Assembly (NCBI GenBank): GCA_944326615.1
Contig: CALVEO010000003.1
Coordinates: 1-64,000 of the forward strand
Source: Candidatus Gastranaerophilales bacterium
Lineage (GTDB): Bacteria; Cyanobacteriota; Vampirovibrionia; Gastranaerophilales; Gastranaerophilaceae
Reading direction: 5' to 3'
DNA length: 64,000 nt
The position numbers and the translations under genes were made by a program. Numbering within the stretch: the stretch's first letter is position 1; each line of letters begins with the position of its first letter. Shown in pieces: positions 1,916-59,943 of the stretch. The notes under the pieces are model-generated. The model did no database searches, had not been told where the DNA came from, and saw only the letters and a list, made by a program, of their open reading frames with translations.

Positions 1916-4711
1916 TCATTTTGGCAGCGAAGCTAAAAATTCTTTATTTGCATTCAGTGTGTCTTCTGTAGCAAGTATTGAGTAAGTCGGTTTGCCTGAG
2001 AAAATGTAGTTTGCAGTGTTATAGATGTCATCTGCGGTAATTTTGTCTATTTCATCGTACAATTGATTTTCTCTTGTTATTCCGTAAGGAGATTCCAGCC
2101 CTTGAATAAGGCTTACTGTTCTGCCGTAAGATGTATTATTTGAGTTTAGGAGAGTATTTTTAAGACTTAATTTAGCATTGTTTAATTCTTCTTGCGAGAC
2201 ATTTTCTTTTTTCAATTTTTCTATATGTTTATTAAACCCTTCAATAGCCTTTTGAACATTTTCAAAACTTTGTTCGCCTGTTTCTTTGTTGTCGGTTGTT
2301 GTTCCAATTTTTAATGTCAAAAGCCCGATATTATTGTATGTTTCAAGATTTGAGCTTACATGATAAGCGAGTTTTTGCTGTTCTCTGAGATCTCCAAATA
2401 GTCTTGACGAAGGATTCCCGCCTAAAATTGTGTTCAAAAGTTCAAGTGCTATACGGTCTTTAATATTCCCGTTTACCTGAAATTTGTATGCTTCAACAAT
2501 TTCAGCCTGATTTTTGAAATCAGTATCTGTTAAAACTTTTGTTTGTTCAACAGGTTTATATACTTCCTGCAGAACTTTAGGATTATATGGCAGAACTGAT
2601 TTAAAGCTTCCAATTGTGTTAAAGATTTGCTGGTTTAATTCAGGTTTTTTGTCAAACGGCGCCGAGATTGCAATCCCGCTTTTGCCGTTTTTCATAGTGT
2701 AATCATAAAGTTTTTTTACATCATCAAGTTTCAATGTCTCAAGATCTTTAAGGATTTCCTCTTTTGAACAGCCTGCTGGCAGCCCTTTATATATTTCGTT
2801 TTCAAGTTTATCAAATGCCGATTTATCCGAGGTCAGAATTGCGTCCTTGATATCAGCTTTGGCGTGTTCAAATTCAGAATCAGTAAATCTTGGATTTTCA
2901 ACAACTTCCCGCAGACTTTTCAGTGCTTTTACTAAATCATCGCAGTTACATGTTATAGTAGCTGATATTGAATCATAACCCGCGCAGATTGAACTTGTGA
3001 TACCGTTTTTAGCTAAGTCTGTTTGAAAATCTTGCTGATTTCTTGAGATCGAACCTTCATCAAGAATTTTGTTTAACACAAGCTCAGCAGAGGGTCTGCT
3101 GTTATATGTCTGGTCTGTTGATATGCGGAAATTTATTTTGACATTGTCTGTTTTTGAATTTATCGTTGCAATGCGGTAATTATTCGGCATATTGTACTCT
3201 TTGACATTTGCCATATTTATTGCTTCTTTTTTAGCCCCCGTAAAAGATACTTTTTTATAATTTTGCTGTATACTTTCTGCTGTAGCAGATGACGGATGTA
3301 CAACAGTTACAGCGGCTTTGTTTATGTCAAGATATTTTTTTGCAGTATTAACAAGATCCTGTGCAGTCATTGATTTTACTATTTGTTCAAAGTTATTAAG
3401 ATAATCTTCGTTATTCTCTAATATTGCAGTTCCGATTGCATTATTTGTTCCGAATGAATTTTCAAATAAAAGTGAAAAATTATTTAGCATTTTTTTCTTG
3501 ACTATGTGCATTTCATCATCAGATGGAGGGTTATTTGCGATATTGCCGATTTCATTGAAAATGTTTTTCAAGACTTTTTCAGAATTTTCATCCGAGCATG
3601 CAGACGTAATCATTATCAAACGCCCATCCCTCTGATTTGTGCTTATTTTTTCGTCATCTGCACGTGACCCTGCATTATACTGTTTAATCTTTTTATCTAT
3701 GCGGGAAGTTGGCGATGCAGAAAGCAAATATAATAGAGCTTTTGTATAAATTCTGTCTTTTGTGTTATCAGATGTCGGTCCGTTAAAGCCTACCACAATA
3801 GAAGATGCATTTGCTTTATCAGAGATTAAATCTTCTCTTACAGTTTTTTGTATGGGGTTAAATTTTTCAATATGCTTTTGTCCGGACGGCTGTTTTTTAG
3901 ATGTAAAATATTTTGATATAAGCTTCATTGTTTCATCTGGCTTTACGTCTCCGGTGATTACTGTTACCATATTGGCAGGGTAATAATTATTATTGAAGTA
4001 ATTTACAACATCTTCTCTTGTAAGATTGGTGATGTTATCGGTTGTTCCGCCTATCATGTCTGTTGATGTAGATTTAATCCCGTAAAGATTTTTTATCATT
4101 TTATTAACCGCAAGATTTTCCGGATCAGAGGTTATCATATTTATTTCTGAATTTACTATACCTTTTTCTTTTTCCAGTTTTTCCACCGCAAAAATAGGTG
4201 TTTCAAGCATAGATGAGTGAAGTTTTATTTTTGTTTCAAGATCACTCTCATTTAAAAGATTTGAGCTTATGTAGTAATTTGTTTCCGCAAAGCCTGTGGA
4301 CGCATTTGTAGAAGCTCCCATTTTATCAATCTGCTTAAAAAAGTCGCCGTTTTCAATGCCCTGTGAGCCGTTAAATAAATTATGTTCTATATAGTGGCTT
4401 ATCCCGCGTAATTTGTCAGGTTCATTCATTGACCCTGTATTAACGTAAGTGCGCAAAACAGTTTCGCCTTCCTGCGGAACAATAATAACCTTTTGACCGT
4501 TTGAAAGTTTGTAACAGTAAGCTTTCGTATCATAAGGGAAATTTATTTCGCCTGTTTTAATATACGAAATAGGCGTTTTAACAGAATAATCAGGCTGAAT
4601 ATCCGGCAATTGTCCAATCTGCGGATTTGTTTGAACTTCATTGCCTTTGAATAAAGGTTTGTTATTTATAAGATAATTATTTACACCATTAATTGAATTT
4701 ATTCTAACCAC
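1916..4711 (-). CDS. M16-family zinc metallopeptidase with two M16 domains
   Basis: This 931-residue protein belongs to the pitrilysin / processing-peptidase superfamily. The inverted zinc motif HYIEH is at residues 106-110 and the downstream zinc-ligand Glu is probably in VNSEI (about residue 189). A second, inactive M16 half fills the C-terminal part, ending with a region of the R-Y type (NPSSRLFGDLREQ). There is no signal peptide. Instead a polar N-terminus carries LFKGN at about 20-24, a motif that recurs in other unknown proteins here. The start is GTG at 4711 with no clear ribosome-binding site; an overlapping ATG is out of frame. A later start is possible. Confidence 0.88.
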   Translation of the reverse strand: MVRINSINGVNNYLINNKPLFKGNEVQTNPQIGQLPDIQPDYSVKTPISYIKTGEINFPYDTKAYCYKLSNGQKVIIVPQEGETVLRTYVNTGSMNEPDKLRGISHYIEHNLFNGSQGIENGDFFKQIDKMGASTNASTGFAETNYYISSNLLNESDLETKIKLHSSMLETPIFAVEKLEKEKGIVNSEINMITSDPENLAVNKMIKNLYGIKSTSTDMIGGTTDNITNLTREDVVNYFNNNYYPANMVTVITGDVKPDETMKLISKYFTSKKQPSGQKHIEKFNPIQKTVREDLISDKANASSIVVGFNGPTSDNTKDRIYTKALLYLLSASPTSRIDKKIKQYNAGSRADDEKISTNQRDGRLIMITSACSDENSEKVLKNIFNEIGNIANNPPSDDEMHIVKKKMLNNFSLLFENSFGTNNAIGTAILENNEDYLNNFEQIVKSMTAQDLVNTAKKYLDINKAAVTVVHPSSATAESIQQNYKKVSFTGAKKEAINMANVKEYNMPNNYRIATINSKTDNVKINFRISTDQTYNSRPSAELVLNKILDEGSISRNQQDFQTDLAKNGITSSICAGYDSISATITCNCDDLVKALKSLREVVENPRFTDSEFEHAKADIKDAILTSDKSAFDKLENEIYKGLPAGCSKEEILKDLETLKLDDVKKLYDYTMKNGKSGIAISAPFDKKPELNQQIFNTIGSFKSVLPYNPKVLQEVYKPVEQTKVLTDTDFKNQAEIVEAYKFQVNGNIKDRIALELLNTILGGNPSSRLFGDLREQQKLAYHVSSNLETYNNIGLLTLKIGTTTDNKETGEQSFENVQKAIEGFNKHIEKLKKENVSQEELNNAKLSLKNTLLNSNNTSYGRTVSLIQGLESPYGITRENQLYDEIDKITADDIYNTANYIFSGKPTYSILATEDTLNANKEFLASLPK

Positions 4712-5000
4712 ATGTATATTAAAACATGAAGAATAAAAAAATTGCTATCCAGTTTCATCTTCAGTTAAAATTTGATGCCATTCCTGATTCTCACCCCTTT
4801 GGGGAGCGTGCCATTCCAGCCGCCACATACTCCCCCCTTGGGGTAGGGTTATCAGAAGATAAGAGGGTTGGAGGATAGGAAGATAAGCTTTTTACCTAAT
4901 TGTTATTTTTAAACATCCTGATTTGTTTCTTTATCATTTACGATTTTTTAATTTTTGTCAATATTAATCTTAACTATTGTTTTTCTTTTTTGTTTGGGTT
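4712..5000. other. Intergenic stretch between the M16 gene and dnaX
   Basis: About 300 bp without a gene. It holds possible promoter elements for the leftward M16 gene (GCAATT on the minus strand near 4740-4745), a GC-richer repeat element (4772-4888) in otherwise AT-rich DNA, and the dnaX promoter at its right end. I see no coding frame worth calling. Confidence 0.6.
4772..4888 (-). repeat. Dispersed intergenic repeat, copy R1
   Basis: This GC-richer block on the minus strand reads GTGGCGGCTGGAATGGCACG followed by CTCC-rich sequence, matching the module near 54205 and the two copies near 58020 and 58090. Its plus strand also carries AGGGTTATCAGAAG and AAGAGGGTTGGAGG, which resemble 56318-56390. 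There is a CCCCCC-TT-GGGG run in the middle. No transposase or clear terminal repeats were seen. Confidence 0.6.
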
Positions 5001-15868: not shown

Positions 15869-17890
15869 TTAATTATTTAGAAAACCTGCCATCGTCGGTT
15901 TATTGTTTGGGATGTAGGTTGATGTTTGAATTGTAGTTGCTGTTTTTGACTGTTGATTTTGCTCATTTGTCTGATTTGCAGCTTGTGCAGCTTTTTCAGC
16001 TTTTTCTTTTTCAACAGCCTTTTTAGTCATATTTTCACAGTAACGCGCAAGCCACATCATGAATGCTGGTACAAGTATAATTGTCGATGCAAATCCAAAT
16101 GCGCTATTAAATGTTTTTGCTCTGTTAATAAATTTATTTTCTTTTGAATGGAATACATTGTAAATTTTTTCAAGAGCTTCTGTTCCTTTGGCTTTGCGGA
16201 ATGCTTCATGGATTTCTTCCATTGTAGCTTCTTTAATTGATTTGCCATTAAATTTCTTCATTATTGCTTCAGATTGTTCTCTTACTGTTTTGTCAATATT
16301 TAACAGAACTTTTTTGACATTTCCTCCATTTTCTTCCAAAAATTTGAAAAATCCGTTGATACCGTCTTTATATTCATCAATACGGCTGTATTTAGAAACT
16401 ATCTGCTCACTTGAAAGAACATCTACACCAGAACCTGCTGTGAAATAATTTTTCAACTTATGGAAGAAACTTTTATTGTGGTCTTCCGGTTTAACATTGA
16501 GTGTTAGCCCGGACATTTTGGCAAACGCATCAGAGAACCCCCTTGAAAGTGCTTTTGCACCAAACAATATTGCGGTGAAGCTTGCAATATCTCTTACCAA
16601 AATTTCTTTTCGCTCCTTATCGCTTTTTGCATTTTTATATCTCGGAGGCAGACAAAATCCGAATAATAGTGTAAGCATGGCGGGAACAGACATTGATGCA
16701 CCGTTAAATTCAAAATTCTTTAACAATTTGCTTATTCCGCCTTCTTTCATTGCTGTTTTACCCACTTGAGATGCAAAACCGCCGGTGAATGGAACATTTT
16801 TATCCTTTCCAGAACTGTTGTTTTCAGCTTTTTTATCTTTGGCATTTTCTTCCTTAGCCGGTTGTGATGCAGTATTGGCGGTATTTTCATCTACCAGTCC
16901 GGTTAAGCCCGGGTCATGTTTTAAGCCGAGATTATATAATTTAGGAATATATGTATAAAAAGCTACAACAGCTGCCCACATGCCAAGATTTGAAATTACT
17001 CTGGTTCCGGCTCTATGAATATTGAATTTTTTGATGTATTCATCAAGATTGCCGTTTGCATGAGCTTTAAGATGTTTATTTACTTTTTCCAGAGCATCGC
17101 CTGTATAGTCTGTTAAACTTTGTGTTAAACGTTTTATATCAGTAAAAAGCGGTTCTTTTTTGCCTTCTACTTTTATTGATACTCCGAATTCATTTACAGA
17201 AGGTTCTGCAAACTGTTTCCTTATTTTCATGTATTCATCAATAATTTCGGCTTGCAGAGTTTTACCGGCTTTTTTAGTATTTTTGTCTTTACTTGCACGT
17301 TTTTCTTCAGACTCTACCAGTTTATTGGCAAATTTTTGCGCTGTTTCTGAGATTCTGTCTTTAAAAGTGTCATCAGTAGAATTTTTCAATGCGTTTTCAA
17401 ATACTCTTGTGTAATAACCTTGTTTAAATTCTTTCGCATTGTTGAGCTTTTCAGGACTTTTGGCAGCATAATCTGCGAAATTTTGTCCGAGCATTTCAAT
17501 ATGGTCAACATAAACATTATTTGCCGTCCCTGATGTTTTCTTAATTACACTAAGTATGCCAAGAGGTATTAAAAATGCACTTGGACCGCTTAATATTTCA
17601 CGAATACCTTCTCGTCTTGCAAATTCCCAGTTCAGGGGACCTGTTTTTTTCCCGTTTTCGTCTTTTTTCCTATTTCTATTTAACCCCTCGTAAATTCTCG
17701 GGGCAACCATGCCAATTCCATCCTGAGTGATAAATGATGCTGCAAATCCACCTTTATCAATACCATCCATTAGTGCCACAACTGGGTTAAATGAACCTGT
17801 AAATGTTTGTTGTTTTTTTAAGTTTTTTTCGGCTTTAATATTATTGTGTTTATCTACACTGCCTGATGAATTTATTGCTTTTACTGACAT
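15869..17890 (-). CDS. Large unknown membrane protein with N-terminal FTG motif
   Basis: This 673-residue protein starts with a Lys/Asn-rich leader ending in QTFTGSFNP (about residues 28-36). Hydrophobic segments lie near 95-112 (PSAFLIPLGILSVI), 305-320, 405-420 and 600-620, and long charged helical regions separate them. The C-terminus is Gln/Asn/Thr-rich. I do not recognise a family. The start ATG has GGGAC just upstream. Two upstream promoter candidates are visible: a GCAATA-18-TATATA element shared with other unknown genes and a standard TTGCAA-17-TATAAT at 18019-18047. Confidence 0.8.
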   Translation of the reverse strand: MSVKAINSSGSVDKHNNIKAEKNLKKQQTFTGSFNPVVALMDGIDKGGFAASFITQDGIGMVAPRIYEGLNRNRKKDENGKKTGPLNWEFARREGIREILSGPSAFLIPLGILSVIKKTSGTANNVYVDHIEMLGQNFADYAAKSPEKLNNAKEFKQGYYTRVFENALKNSTDDTFKDRISETAQKFANKLVESEEKRASKDKNTKKAGKTLQAEIIDEYMKIRKQFAEPSVNEFGVSIKVEGKKEPLFTDIKRLTQSLTDYTGDALEKVNKHLKAHANGNLDEYIKKFNIHRAGTRVISNLGMWAAVVAFYTYIPKLYNLGLKHDPGLTGLVDENTANTASQPAKEENAKDKKAENNSSGKDKNVPFTGGFASQVGKTAMKEGGISKLLKNFEFNGASMSVPAMLTLLFGFCLPPRYKNAKSDKERKEILVRDIASFTAILFGAKALSRGFSDAFAKMSGLTLNVKPEDHNKSFFHKLKNYFTAGSGVDVLSSEQIVSKYSRIDEYKDGINGFFKFLEENGGNVKKVLLNIDKTVREQSEAIMKKFNGKSIKEATMEEIHEAFRKAKGTEALEKIYNVFHSKENKFINRAKTFNSAFGFASTIILVPAFMMWLARYCENMTKKAVEKEKAEKAAQAANQTNEQNQQSKTATTIQTSTYIPNNKPTMAGFLNN

Positions 17891-17923: not shown

Positions 17924-17956
17924 ATTTATATAAAACTTATGATTTACACTTATTGC
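17924..17956 (-). promoter_or_regulatory. Shared-type element GCAATA-18-TATATAAAT
   Basis: Minus-strand GCAATA (17956 to 17951) and TATATAAAT (17932 to 17924) with 18 nt between. The same arrangement is found upstream of four other unknown genes in the window. Confidence 0.4.
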
Positions 17957-35700: not shown

Positions 35701-35728
35701 TTGTGAATTTCTACAATTATTATATACT
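35701..35728 (+). promoter_or_regulatory. Promoter of a second candidate small RNA
   Basis: TTGTGA and TATACT are separated by 16 nt on the plus strand, followed by a non-coding region with a terminator-like hairpin. Confidence 0.4.
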
Positions 35729-35734
35729 TTATAT

Positions 35735-35851
35735 ATATACCGGTTAAATAAAACGAGCGATATTAAAAGAGAGAGTATTCAAATAAGAGAGAGAAAATTT
35801 CCTATACCTTCCTAAAAACAAAATTTTTACCCCGTATAAGGGGTATTTTTA
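35735..35851 (+). ncRNA. Candidate small RNA with GA-rich repeats
   Basis: About 117 nt between a plausible plus-strand promoter and the hairpin ACCCC-GTATAA-GGGGT followed by ATTTTTA. The body has two GA-rich tracts (AAGAGAGAG and AAGAGAGAGA) about 20 nt apart. The flanking genes are both on the minus strand. No open frame of note was seen. The start and extent are approximate. Confidence 0.35.
35828..35851 (+). terminator. Terminator-like hairpin of the candidate RNA
   Basis: ACCCC / GGGGT stem with a GTATAA loop and ATTTTTA tail on the plus strand. Confidence 0.5.
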
Positions 35852-40486: not shown

Positions 40487-40518
40487 AAAAAAAGACCGTT
40501 TTTAACCGGTCTTTTTTT
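40487..40518. terminator. Bidirectional terminator
   Basis: AAAGACCG / CGGTCTTT stem flanked by A-run and T-run, between the 57-residue gene and the convergent glycine-zipper gene. Confidence 0.88.
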
Positions 40519-41896
40519 ATGCACAATAGTTAAGATTTGCGATTGCTTCCAATTGATTTATTACAGGTTCGTATTCTGAATTTTGGGCTAGAGAATTTTC
40601 ATATTCCGGTGTATTAGTGCTTTGTGATTCATTTAAATTTGATTCTTTTTGTGCTACAAGTTCTTCAAATGCCTTTAAAGTTTCTTCATCATCAAAGCCG
40701 CCTTCTTCTTTAGCCTTCTGTGCTGCAGCCAAAATCAATTCTTCTTGTTTTTCCGGTGATTTGTCAGCTTGTTCAGCTAACTGTTTTGCTTGTTCTTTTT
40801 GGGTTTTATTTTGTTCTTCAGCGTAAAGCTGTGCTTCTGTTTTATTTAAAGAATCTTTTTCATTGAGCGCAGCATCCATAACTTTTCCGGCACCCCAGCT
40901 TGCTATTGCACCGCCGATAAGACCGCCGACAAAACCGACAACAGCGCCTGCCACATTTCCTATACCTGGAACTACCGAGCCTGCTACAGCTCCTGCCGCA
41001 GCAGCGCCGGCTGCGTAACCTAGAACACTTGCTCCGACTTTTGTTGCAGATTTTGCAAGCTGTTTGTTGCCTCTGTTATTATTTATTCCCTGTTGTTTTT
41101 CAACTTTATCAATTTTGTAAGCTTGGACAACGGATGGAATTTCCATTAATCCTTCTATTGCAGCCATTATCCAGCTTCCCTTTACTCCTTTTTTTGCTAA
41201 TCTTAGTGCTGATGCGCCTTTTGATGTTTTTAGCATTTTGCTTTCGGCTTTATAGACTCCTGTTTTTGTTTTTAGCCAGTGAGATGCTTTCCCTGTTGTG
41301 GAAGCAGGCTTTATAAGCCCGCGTTGAATCGCCTGATTTACTTTCATATCGCCCTTTTGTAGTGCTGCTCTTATTTTTTTCAGCTGCTCTTTTAATTCAG
41401 CGCCTGTCATTTTTTTATCTTTTGCTTCCTGTATAAGCTTTTTAGCTTCACTGTAATATCTGCTTTTTCTTTGTGTATTTTCTAATTTTACAAGCTGTTT
41501 ATTATTTAATTTTGAAATATCTGTATTAACATTGTATGCAGGTAATTCCTTTTCAATATTTATAAGATTGTTATATTGATGCTTATTTTTCATTGTCTGC
41601 CACAAGCTTTTATCATCTTTTAGATGTGCTGTAGCATTTTTATTTTTTTCTGAAAGATTTTTCCAGGCTTGAAAATAATTTGTTCCCCCTGCAGTTTTCA
41701 TTTCCTGATATACCTTAAAAGGTTTTGCACCGTATTTTAAAAGTGCCGGGCCGCCAATCATTAATGGAAGTCCGAAAGCAAGGTTTGTTCCTAAATCAGT
41801 GATTAATCTATTCTGTTGTGTCTGTTCCGGTTGTACTCCATATAGCCAGTTAGCAAGCGCTAAATTCTGGCTTTGAACCGAATTAACATCTGCCAT
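40517..41896 (-). CDS. Glycine-zipper protein of unknown function
   Basis: This 459-residue protein has a long basic, helical N-terminal half and then a glycine/alanine zipper (about 275-345, with AGAAAAGAVAGSVVPG and VVGFVGGLIGGAIASWG). An acidic, Gln/Glu-rich tail follows. No signal peptide. Before the zipper it has GLMEIPSVVQAYK, which matches GITEIPNILSAFK in the next gene upstream, so the two are paralogues. Such zippers can insert into membranes or pack in oligomers. A toxin-like or effector role is only a guess. Confidence 0.75.
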   Translation of the reverse strand: MADVNSVQSQNLALANWLYGVQPEQTQQNRLITDLGTNLAFGLPLMIGGPALLKYGAKPFKVYQEMKTAGGTNYFQAWKNLSEKNKNATAHLKDDKSLWQTMKNKHQYNNLINIEKELPAYNVNTDISKLNNKQLVKLENTQRKSRYYSEAKKLIQEAKDKKMTGAELKEQLKKIRAALQKGDMKVNQAIQRGLIKPASTTGKASHWLKTKTGVYKAESKMLKTSKGASALRLAKKGVKGSWIMAAIEGLMEIPSVVQAYKIDKVEKQQGINNNRGNKQLAKSATKVGASVLGYAAGAAAAGAVAGSVVPGIGNVAGAVVGFVGGLIGGAIASWGAGKVMDAALNEKDSLNKTEAQLYAEEQNKTQKEQAKQLAEQADKSPEKQEELILAAAQKAKEEGGFDDEETLKAFEELVAQKESNLNESQSTNTPEYENSLAQNSEYEPVINQLEAIANLNYCA

Positions 41897-41937: not shown

Positions 41938-41967
41938 TATATAAAAAATTTGCTTTATAAAAATTGC
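41938..41967 (-). promoter_or_regulatory. Shared-type element GCAATT-18-TATATA
   Basis: Minus-strand GCAATT (41967 to 41962) and TATATA (41943 to 41938) with 18 nt between. Confidence 0.4.
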
Positions 41968-42020: not shown

Positions 42021-42923
42021 TTAACATTGAAAGTTTAGTCTGTTCATACCTGATGTCATAGCCATGAAGTCCTGATCCATAGGATTTGCCGCTGCACCTG
42101 AGTATAACATCTGCTGTAAAGCCATTAACTGCTGTGGAGACATTGCTGGCTTCGGAATATTCATCTGCTGCGGTATTCCTTCGGGCATATCTGTTCCGAA
42201 AGGATTCATACCATATTGTTGAAGCATAGCCTGTTGTTGTTTTAGTGCTTCTTCAGCTTCAGCTTTTTTCTCAGAATGACTTTTGCCTGTAAATTTACTC
42301 ATCAGCCAGTCGCCTGCGACATAACCTACGATACTTCCAAGTATAGGACCCACAACAGGTATTGGCGCTAATAGTGCTGCACCTATGGCTCCTGCAGTCA
42401 TACCTGCACCTAGTCTTAATCCTGCTTTAACAGTTTCTGTAACACCTCCGAATATTCCTTCATCTTTAAAAGCTGACAATATATTAGGTATTTCTGTTAT
42501 GCCTATTAAAAGTGTACCTATAAGAGGCATTCTTTTTCCGATTCCGCTCATTGCACCTTTAAACTGAGACCAGAATTTTGAAGCGCCTGTTTTGCCTTTC
42601 CTCTCTGCAAGTTTGCCCCCAACTCTCCAGCCTTGAGCGACTTTAGCAGGGAATGATTTTAATGAAGCCCATGTACCTTTCCAGAAGCCGCCATGTTTTT
42701 GTGTCATAGATTTATTATGTTTTTCTGCTGCATGTGCACCATTTTTGATACCAGACCATACAGATTCCATATATGATTGTCCGTTTGCTTTACGGTTTTT
42801 AATTGTTTCGCGCATTGCATTTGTAAATTTCTCGTTGCCTGTTCCAAGTACAAAATCAGGATACAGCTTGCCTGCGCGTTTAAAATATTGCAAACCTTTT
42901 GATGCAATAGAACCTATTCCCAT
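42021..42923 (-). CDS. Glycine-zipper protein, paralogue of the neighbour
   Basis: This 300-residue protein has a basic N-terminal half, GITEIPNILSAFK (about 150-162), a glycine/alanine zipper (about 175-215, LGAGMTAGAIGAAL and GPILGSIVGYVAG), and a Gln/Met/Pro-rich tail. No signal peptide. The gene has its own terminator and a leader with TAAGGTAGGTTA. It appears to be a duplicate of the 459-residue protein with a shorter tail. Function unknown. Confidence 0.75.
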   Translation of the reverse strand: MGIGSIASKGLQYFKRAGKLYPDFVLGTGNEKFTNAMRETIKNRKANGQSYMESVWSGIKNGAHAAEKHNKSMTQKHGGFWKGTWASLKSFPAKVAQGWRVGGKLAERKGKTGASKFWSQFKGAMSGIGKRMPLIGTLLIGITEIPNILSAFKDEGIFGGVTETVKAGLRLGAGMTAGAIGAALLAPIPVVGPILGSIVGYVAGDWLMSKFTGKSHSEKKAEAEEALKQQQAMLQQYGMNPFGTDMPEGIPQQMNIPKPAMSPQQLMALQQMLYSGAAANPMDQDFMAMTSGMNRLNFQC

Positions 42924-42955
42924 TTTTACCTACCTAATTTTTATAACCTACCTTA

Positions 42956-42988
42956 ATTACATAAAAAAAATTTTTTTGCATAAATTGC
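42956..42988 (-). promoter_or_regulatory. Shared-type element GCAATT-19-TATGTAAT
   Basis: Minus-strand GCAATT (42988 to 42983) and TATGTAAT (42963 to 42956) with 19 nt between; TAAGGTAGGTTA follows at once. Confidence 0.4.
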
Positions 42989-54876: not shown

Positions 54877-56121
54877 TTAGTGGCGTATCATGCCGCCTAA
54901 GCCTGAATATCCTCCTGTACTATATTTATTAGTACTATTATTTACAGAATTTATATACTCATTTACAAGAGTTTTCAGCTCGTCAAAACTGTTTGCAGTA
55001 ATTGTCTTGCCAACTTTGCCTCTTGTCGTTGAAATAGTGGAAACTTGTGTGGAATATTTACCGTTTGCATATGTAACTTGTTTATCAGGGTGTTGTTTAT
55101 TCCAGTTTTGGACTTCTTTTTGGGCTTGATATTTACTTGCTACTTTGCTCCCTGTTGTGCCGGTTTGTTTATTAAAAGTTTGGGCATCAATTTCTTGATT
55201 TTTACTATTGAAATAGTGATATTTACCGTCCTTGTCTACTTTGACTGCAAATTTATTGCCGCTTGGAGTTGTTACACTGTATGCAGCAGTATATTGTACA
55301 TTATTATAGCCTGTCTTTTTACTTGATGAAGCTGTACTTTGAGTTTTTTGAGTACCTGCACTTGAAGCTGTATTCTTTAAAATACTGCCTGTACCAAGAC
55401 CTGCAAGTTCTGAACAATCAGATGGCTGTACCAGCTCACCGTTCATAAGTATATATTCCTGTGTAGTTGTCGGAACTTCTTTCCCTGTTGTATTGTTTGT
55501 TGCTCCGGTAAGTGTATATACAGGATATTCAGTTCCTTTATAATTTACAGTTCGGCCTGTTTTTTGATAAGTATATGTATTCTGCTGATCTTTGATGCTT
55601 ACCTCGCCGTTTTCTCCAACGGTAACAGTACCTGAAATATCTGCTTTTGAACCAAGTACGTTGTCTTTTGCCTTTGTGATTTGTCCGTTAATAAAATCTG
55701 CAGCTTTTGCTTTTTGCTCTGCGATTTCTGCGTTTTCTTTTTGCTGTTTTTCGCTAATCTGTGGTTTTGCATCAGGTTTTGGCTCAGTTTTTTCTTCTAC
55801 GGTATCTTCTGCCTTTTGGCCGCTATCACCTGCACCTTCAGCGGAACCGCCTCCCAAAATTGCACCTAAAATTGTTCCGAGTGCACCAAGTCCGGTGCCA
55901 ATACCAAGTGTCCATTTTTCAAAGCCTGATAAGCTGTTGTCGCAGTGGTGATGTACATCATACATGTCTATTCCGCGGGGCATTGCTCCAAAATTGTTAA
56001 TTACAATATTGTTTGAAACAATATTCGCACGTCCCATGCCTCGCTTTTGGCCTGCTTTTAAACTATATGTTAATGATTGTCTGTCACCACCGGGTGTCCA
56101 TCCGGTTATACCATAACTCAT
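54877..56121 (-). CDS. Unknown protein with short glycine zipper
   Basis: This 414-residue protein begins MSYGITGWTPGGDRQ, has NNFGAMPRG (about 42-50), a glycine-rich hydrophobic stretch (about 72-92, GIGTGLGALGTILGAILGGG), and an acidic Pro/Lys/Ala-rich linker. A beta-rich, Thr/Ser/Asn-rich C-terminal half contains two parallel segments (NTYTYQKTGRTVNYKGTEY, KYHYFNSKNQEI). No signal peptide. The composition is that of an exported or surface protein, but the route is unknown. Confidence 0.75.
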   Translation of the reverse strand: MSYGITGWTPGGDRQSLTYSLKAGQKRGMGRANIVSNNIVINNFGAMPRGIDMYDVHHHCDNSLSGFEKWTLGIGTGLGALGTILGAILGGGSAEGAGDSGQKAEDTVEEKTEPKPDAKPQISEKQQKENAEIAEQKAKAADFINGQITKAKDNVLGSKADISGTVTVGENGEVSIKDQQNTYTYQKTGRTVNYKGTEYPVYTLTGATNNTTGKEVPTTTQEYILMNGELVQPSDCSELAGLGTGSILKNTASSAGTQKTQSTASSSKKTGYNNVQYTAAYSVTTPSGNKFAVKVDKDGKYHYFNSKNQEIDAQTFNKQTGTTGSKVASKYQAQKEVQNWNKQHPDKQVTYANGKYSTQVSTISTTRGKVGKTITANSFDELKTLVNEYINSVNNSTNKYSTGGYSGLGGMIRH

Positions 56122-56147: not shown

Positions 56148-56184
56148 CTTATATATATAAAGTATATATATAATTATATATTGC
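56148..56184 (-). promoter_or_regulatory. Shared-type element GCAATA-19-TATATATATAAG
   Basis: Minus-strand GCAATA (56184 to 56179) and TATATATATAAG (56159 to 56148) with 19 nt between. Confidence 0.4.
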
Positions 56185-58957: not shown

Positions 58958-59779
58958 TTAATTTGCTTTGAAAGCTCCTATCAAACCTCCGGCAAGTGCT
59001 GCACCGCCGCCTACTAATGCTGCGACTAACGGTTTGTTTTTTAGTCCTTTCCAGAAACCTTTAAACAGATATTTAGCTGATACTATTGCAGCTCCGCCAA
59101 ATACTGCACCACCTGCTGCGTTACCTGCAATTTTCTTGGCTTGTTCGCTTCTGCCCACCGGCTGTCCTGTTAATTCTGAAATATTTTCTTCTGCTGTTTT
59201 CTTATCAGCAAATCCGAGGGTTATAGTCTGTAAGAAGCCCTGAGTAAATGAGCCTCTGCCGTATTTTCTTATATCATCTGTTACTGAAGCACCTATGAGT
59301 TGTTTATACATAGTTGAAGCTCTGTTTGCGACTTCTTCGTCAGATGCTGTCGGATACATACTTTTTACACTATTTTTAAAGTTTTGGTATGCATTTTGTA
59401 TCTGCTGCTGTTCGTTTCTCATAATTTTTTCATGGAGATATGAAGCCTGTTTTGCAATGCCTTCCTGTGGGGAATTTAATCTTAAATCAGCTTCGCGCCA
59501 TTTTTGCTGTTGTTTTACCTGAGTATCAATCATGAAGTCCTGATATTTTTCATAGTTTTTATAATAATCTTCATAATTTCCGGTACCCATACCCATTGGA
59601 GGCATCATCGGATACATTCCTGCTCCAAATATGCTGCCATTCATGCTCATCATCGGATTAGTATACATACCGAGCGGTGAATACATATCCAGACCTGTCA
59701 AATCGTTAAATGCTACCTGGTTATTATATATATTCGGAAACATTCCGTACATATTTGCAGCCATGTTGAAGTCTGCCAT
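58958..59779 (-). CDS. Unknown protein with C-terminal glycine zipper
   Basis: This 273-residue protein has a Met/Asn/Gly/Tyr-rich N-terminus (about 1-70), a charged helical middle, and two hydrophobic glycine/alanine segments at the C-terminus (GNAAGGAVFGGAAIVSA, ALVGGGAALAGGLIGAF). No signal peptide. The leader shares TAAGGTAGGTTA and the upstream GCAATT element with other glycine-zipper genes of the window. Function unknown; membrane insertion is plausible. Confidence 0.75.
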   Translation of the reverse strand: MADFNMAANMYGMFPNIYNNQVAFNDLTGLDMYSPLGMYTNPMMSMNGSIFGAGMYPMMPPMGMGTGNYEDYYKNYEKYQDFMIDTQVKQQQKWREADLRLNSPQEGIAKQASYLHEKIMRNEQQQIQNAYQNFKNSVKSMYPTASDEEVANRASTMYKQLIGASVTDDIRKYGRGSFTQGFLQTITLGFADKKTAEENISELTGQPVGRSEQAKKIAGNAAGGAVFGGAAIVSAKYLFKGFWKGLKNKPLVAALVGGGAALAGGLIGAFKAN

Positions 59780-59815
59780 AACCTAACCTCCAAATTTGTT
59801 TTTTAACCTACCTTA

Positions 59816-59848
59816 CTTATATAAACAATTTTGTTTATTAAAAATTGC
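59816..59848 (-). promoter_or_regulatory. Shared-type element GCAATT-19-TATATAAG
   Basis: Minus-strand GCAATT (59848 to 59843) and TATATAAG (59823 to 59816) with 19 nt between; TAAGGTAGGTTA follows. Confidence 0.4.
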
Positions 59849-59943
59849 TTTTTGAGAATATTTTATGTTACAATTTCGTAACAATAGAGTATTGATTAAC
59901 TTTATTAAAGTGTGTAAAATTGCTTTATAATGAGGTATAGCAG

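Follow-up and report, generated by a model that had tools for sequence, protein, structure and literature searches.

A predicted two-box promoter class of the Gastranaerophilales and candidate sigma factors for its recognition

Promoters of sigma70 group 1 and 2 factors (TTGACA-N17-TATAAT) have two boxes near -35 and -10, a spacing that varies by about 1 nt and an AT-rich -10 box. The same traits mark an element that we describe here from the first 64,000 nt (the window) of contig CALVEO010000003.1 of a Candidatus Gastranaerophilales bacterium (assembly GCA_944326615.1). In this element GCAATT lies upstream and TTTATATA follows at a near-fixed distance, as at 59818-59848 on the minus strand, 5' of gene 58958-59779. 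In contrast to group 1 and 2 promoters, the presumed -35 box of the class, GCAATT(TTT), is unlike TTGACA, the presumed -10 region is TTTATATAWATA, and the class is limited to one gene class in one bacterial order. The late-flagellar regulons of FliA (sigma28) offer another likeness, in that an alternative sigma70-family factor serves scattered operons there and export-type products would be analogous, but class elements have neither the TAAA nor the GCCGATAA box of a FliA promoter. The GCAAT of the class resembles the AAC/AAT core of the -35 boxes read by extracytoplasmic function (ECF) sigma factors. ECF regulons differ in having a -35 box of the GGAAC type and a -10 box of CGTC or TCTRA, whereas that of the class is TATA-like. 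None of the papers in the library searched mentions a sigma factor together with Gastranaerophilales, and among the titles and opening lines of abstracts returned for the box together with sigma factor and promoter, none dealt with this order.

Architecture, enrichment and range of the element

The host genome (1,955,658 bases in 78 contigs) has 34% GC, and TATATA is common in it. Genome-scale statistics were built on pattern searches and sampled stretches. A sequence-only reading of the window had proposed a search for GCAATW-N18/19-TATAWA; this pattern matched 54 times genome-wide versus 15 for the reversed pattern, and the strict form GCAATT-N17-TTTATATA gave 25 sites versus 0. With the distance from GCAAT to TTATATA left free between 4 and 34 nt, N19 accounted for 27 of the 100 sites listed, N18 for 5 and N20 for 3, and no spacing outside this range exceeded 9, a tolerance of about 1 nt in either direction as in a two-box sigma promoter. 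Start codons follow on the same strand, mostly 18-60 nt 3' of the element. The enrichment is thus strong and directional, and GCAATT-TTTATATA almost certainly marks a real promoter class.

Aligned matches extend the consensus to an A-run, GCAATTTTT, about eight free bases, AAAATAC or TTGTT, TTTATATA, WATA and purines; information in the columns set by the search pattern is forced, while the flanking columns are free of this effect. No second conserved half-site was seen upstream of the -35 box in the aligned sites beyond the weak A-run. Some members have a palindromic -10 region, and some carry extra palindromes. As in promoters of alternative sigma factors, two boxes at near-fixed spacing, distinct from the housekeeping boxes, stand directly 5' of coherent target genes on the same strand.

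The sequence-only reading had listed five such elements in the window, and direct reading finds all five, on the minus strand, with 32-41 nt between -10 box and ATG. A position matrix trained without the window sites was scored across the 64 kb. Its top four non-overlapping hits were those at 59848 (38.8), 56184 (38.2), 41967 (29.9) and 42988 (27.5), and five sites scored at least 22, compared with a mean of 0.00 in 60 Markov-1 simulations. The fifth, at 17956, is a divergent variant with a score of 19.6, yet it is conserved within its genus.

We surveyed the strict form in 146 genomes of the order, covering 40 genera and 7 families, and found it in all 146, with 2-54 sites each versus 0-3 for the control. 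It is at chance level in the sister order (0, 0 and 2 sites in three genomes) and in other Cyanobacteriota (0-2 sites per genome searched). Because the class is order-wide and absent from the sister order and other cyanobacteria, this lineage is likely to possess a specificity factor for RNA polymerase, and a regulon, of its own. An altered consensus in a genus with few sites (g17; such labels are ours) was considered and rejected, as 400 kb held no variant box and the sites are just fewer.

Footprints at single genes show the two boxes kept and the spacer drifting. In nearly every order genome examined, a ribbon-helix-helix (RHH) gene, present in up to about three copies per genome, has kept the element; these genomes come from families f1, f2, f3, f4, f6 and f7, and their spacers have little in common. 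Upstream of the gene ending at 59779, GCAATTT, TTTATATAAGTAAGGTAGGTTA and AATTTGGAGGTTAGGTTATG are unchanged or nearly so in 11 sequences while the spacer varies. The element of the gene ending at 42923 exceeds a score of 20 at 22 of the 24 loci (its own included), some from distant families, and is often followed in these relatives by a leader beginning AAGGTAGGTTA. The variant upstream of the gene ending at 17890, GCAATAAGTGTAA followed by TTTAAATA or TTTATATA, is kept within the genus, and a GCAATTTTTT-type box precedes its homologs from two other families, seen in three genomes.

Genes downstream of the element

Matrix matches in the fetched loci comprise 36 units in the host genome and 72 in other genomes. 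Judged from these sites, the host genome has a scattered regulon of about 25-36 units with mostly lineage-specific products. The sequence-only reading had placed the class before membrane or glycine-zipper genes of no known function. The downstream genes are indeed a distinct set, though a wider one that takes in RHH regulators, wall-hydrolase proteins, a HEAT-repeat protein and FolE2. Their products include a small coiled-coil family, proteins with LysM-like, CHAP and GH108 domains, a beta-barrel-like protein and EF-hand proteins, and many have no match at all.

Regulon proteins were compared with control genes from two genomes in tests that treat orthologs as independent and use crude gene calls and a crude signal test. 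On these terms, none of 66 regulon proteins has a hydrophobic N-terminus versus 88 of 429 controls (p ~1e-6), 47 of 66 have a small second residue versus 107 of 429 (p 5e-13), and 22 of 66 end in alanine versus 21 of 429 (p 2e-10). Alanine ends such as NLFA, DLYA, PKYA and EIAWA thus occur in about one third of the regulon and 5% of controls, and are weaker in the own-genome subset (4 of at most 21 proteins). GxxxG is commoner than in controls (p 1e-4), and N, M, P, G and related residues are enriched over positions 1-60 (p 6e-8), also when own-genome proteins are taken alone (p 2e-6). An N-terminal F-x-G motif is weakly above shuffles in the proteins of the order (16 vs 4.2), with no enrichment in the regulon. 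A phage or mobile-element origin of the regulon was considered and rejected; most products do not match phage families, and 52 proteins gave 19 families, mostly endolysin-type and RHH.

Candidate readers of the class

In the explanation that we favor, at a probability of roughly 60%, GCAATT(TTT) would be the -35 box and TTTATATAWATA the -10 region of promoters recognized by an alternative sigma70-family factor that only the Gastranaerophilales have, most likely the one labeled s301. The scattered regulon would comprise RHH regulators and proteins without Sec signals that combine an Asn/Met/Pro/Gly-rich N-terminus with a wall-active, glycine-zipper or unassigned C-terminal part. The sequence-only reading had suggested a regulon under another sigma factor or activator. 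Our results agree, with circumstantial support for the first option: we consider it quite probable that an alternative sigma reads the class, and the assignment to s301 in particular is tentative, at somewhat less than even odds.

The host genome has eight sigma genes. Among 12 genomes compared inside and outside the order, s301, s355 and s357 are RpoD-like subfamilies that form clades with 100% support and occur only in the order, which leaves these three as candidates with the phyletic range of the element, while RpoD, s276, s280 and ecf224 are common to the order and its sister order. The s301 factor (about 300 amino acids; locus L034 in the host genome) has primary sigma factors as its nearest PDB structures and aligns over its length with those, not with ECF factors. 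Across the 36 genomes read its -35 recognition helix is always TKEC[IV]RQ, against TRERIRQ in RpoD, and its region-2.4 Thr is replaced. Of 36 s301 loci (132.7 kb), 13 have class sites no more than about 1.5 kb from the gene, versus none of 46 loci of other sigmas (136 kb). The altered yet invariant helix and the clustering of sites near its gene are what favor s301.

Several points weigh against this explanation. Given shared ancestry, the linkage of sites to s301 shrinks to some four independent contexts in the genomes, and no site clearly drives s301 itself in the genomes checked. In genera with few sites (g17, g18, g22 and g24) s301 has Ile or Met and a Lys directly following the invariant stretch of the helix, but this change is probably one evolutionary event, and the remaining sites of that clade look the same as others. 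The s355 factor is also altered in its 2.4 and 4.2 regions, and the extra palindromes suggest that other DNA-binding proteins probably act at some promoters.

Two observations concern the sigma genes themselves. Autoregulation through the element was rejected, as a search of 400 bases 5' of each sigma gene gave no sense-orientation site except for one weak hit at RpoD (genome G004). In g17 (loci L283-L285) s357 adjoins s301, and a GCAATT promoter between them is aimed against the 3' end of s357; it may yield a predicted antisense RNA or tiny gene.

An activator, possibly one of the RHH proteins of the order, could instead bind GCAATT at -35 and recruit RpoD polymerase to the TATATA -10 box. 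RHH genes rank with its best-conserved carriers, the -10 is palindromic at some sites and a palindrome lies upstream at 59779, and the class -10 is close to that of RpoD. We nevertheless consider an activator unlikely, since the class has a single short asymmetric half-site at fixed spacing with no conserved second half-site, and the sister order has RHH homologs without the element. Similarly improbable is a reading in which s355, or s357, takes the place of s301. Both have the same phyletic range as s301, and the SKERIRQ helix of s355 is invariant, with a Thr-to-Ile change in its region 2.4, but no sites lie near either gene in 17 loci, both recognition regions of s357 are RpoD-like, and in G113, which has more sites than any other genome, s355 has diverged strongly.

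Much less probable is that the FliA-type s280, freed from flagellar duty in the non-flagellated family, has been retuned to the class promoter. In its favor, the regulon resembles export substrates, and canonical sigma28 promoters (TAAA-N13/17-GCCGATA) show no enrichment in the host genome (15 vs 14 in the control). In E. coli FliA, R74, D81 and R91 are determinants for the GCCGATAA -10 box; s280 retains the aligned residues, as expected of a factor that reads its own -10, and it is common to the sister order, which is without the class. That the class reflects chance pairing of AT-rich words, or serves the order as a general housekeeping promoter, has close to negligible probability despite the base composition of the genome: chance is refuted by the 25 sites versus 0, the presence in 146 of 146 genomes, the footprints and the spacing peak, and a housekeeping role is contradicted by the special set of downstream genes, by a -35 box unlike TTGACA and by TTGACA-17-TATAAT-like sites that exist as a separate set (37 vs 20 expected).

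Loci in the window and possible export

The gene at 58958-59779 (minus strand) encodes a 273-amino acid protein of no assigned function and no Pfam match, with an Asn/Met/Pro/Gly-rich N-terminus, a helical middle and a Gly/Ala-rich hydrophobic C-terminus; its predicted structure has a mean predicted local distance difference test score (pLDDT) of 46.5. Its named relatives are mostly from Candidatus Gastranaerophilales or Melainabacteria metagenome-assembled genomes, plus uncultured bins, and the one labeled Fusobacterium sp. CAG:439 is probably mislabeled. Upstream of the -35 box a perfect palindrome, TGTTAC-GAAATT-GTAACA (59866-59883), is kept in most orthologs and is possibly an additional regulator site. 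Between -10 box and start codon lies a leader, AAGGTAGGTTA ... GGAGGTTAGGTT (59780-59817, minus strand), conserved in the 11 sequences and also found in relatives of the 42923 gene and the L046/L238 family. The form shared with 42924-42957, AAGGTAGGTTA ... GGTAGGT, is near-invariant across orthologs of the two unrelated genes and is possibly a translation-level or RNA element.

The other elements, all on the minus strand, vary in detail. The one at 56154-56184, found by pattern and matrix, is of the palindromic -10 subtype TATATACTTTATATATATAAGAGAGTATA and precedes a 414-amino acid protein of no assigned function with a sub-threshold DUF6033 match (54877-56121). The matrix hit at 42958-42988, with the -10 variant TTTATGTA, precedes a 300-amino acid glycine-rich hydrophobic protein, likewise without assigned function (42021-42923). 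At 41938-41967, by both pattern and matrix, the spacing is shorter by one and the leader is of the GGGGAAA subtype; the 459-amino acid product (40517-41896) has a Gly/Ala hydrophobic segment, ends in NYCA and has no Pfam match. The divergent variant at 17927-17956, GCAATAAGTGTAA ... TTTTATATA, with its genus-conserved GCAATAA-type box, precedes a 673-amino acid protein of no assigned function (15869-17890). A weaker candidate site of the class by matrix (GCAATTTTTTTATTCTTCATGTTTTAATATA, 4715-4745) lies 5' of an M16 peptidase without signal peptide (1916-4711). On the plus strand, 35705-35735 has a good TATATACTTTATATATATA -10 region and a poor -35 box, followed by no open reading frame and then by two hairpins with T-runs, a candidate small RNA; an Rfam scan of the 64-kb window gave no match.

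The lack of a hydrophobic N-terminus in all 66 regulon proteins is as expected of type III or flagellar substrates, and since one promoter class serves wall hydrolases that lack Sec signals, an export regulon is plausible. Each of the 20 genomes tested in the order and its sister order has an export gate of the FlhA type in full length, also those without a flagellar-class FlhA. We raise the hypothesis that regulon products are exported through this conserved flagellar-type apparatus, a link weakened by the sister order, where the gate occurs but the promoter class does not. The host genome carries a FliE-FliF-unknown-FliH-FlhA cluster (L206, G000:C4:65.8-72 kb), possibly a non-flagellar export machine, and a second FlhA with a higher score is found in families f2, f3, f4, f6 and f7 and in genus g14. 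A 492-amino acid protein (L207:8921-10396, G000:C18) consists of the FlhA cytoplasmic domain alone (PF00771, 1.1e-47); almost every order genome searched, G134 being an exception, has such C-terminal-only matches, and the two sister-order genomes have none. At its boldest, and we consider this doubtful, an order-specific sigma with a new -35 specificity would run the substrates of a flagellum-derived, non-flagellar exporter kept even by non-motile gut Gastranaerophilales, and wall hydrolases and membrane-inserting proteins would be marked for export by their Asn/Met/Pro/Gly-rich N-termini.

The Gastranaerophilales, relatives of the cyanobacteria, are common in the gut and uncultured. Since its promoters are recognizable from sequence, the class opens access to dozens of lineage-specific genes of no assigned function per genome, predicts which of them act together and names three candidate sigma factors. 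If the products are exported, the regulon would be a first list of candidate effectors for the order.
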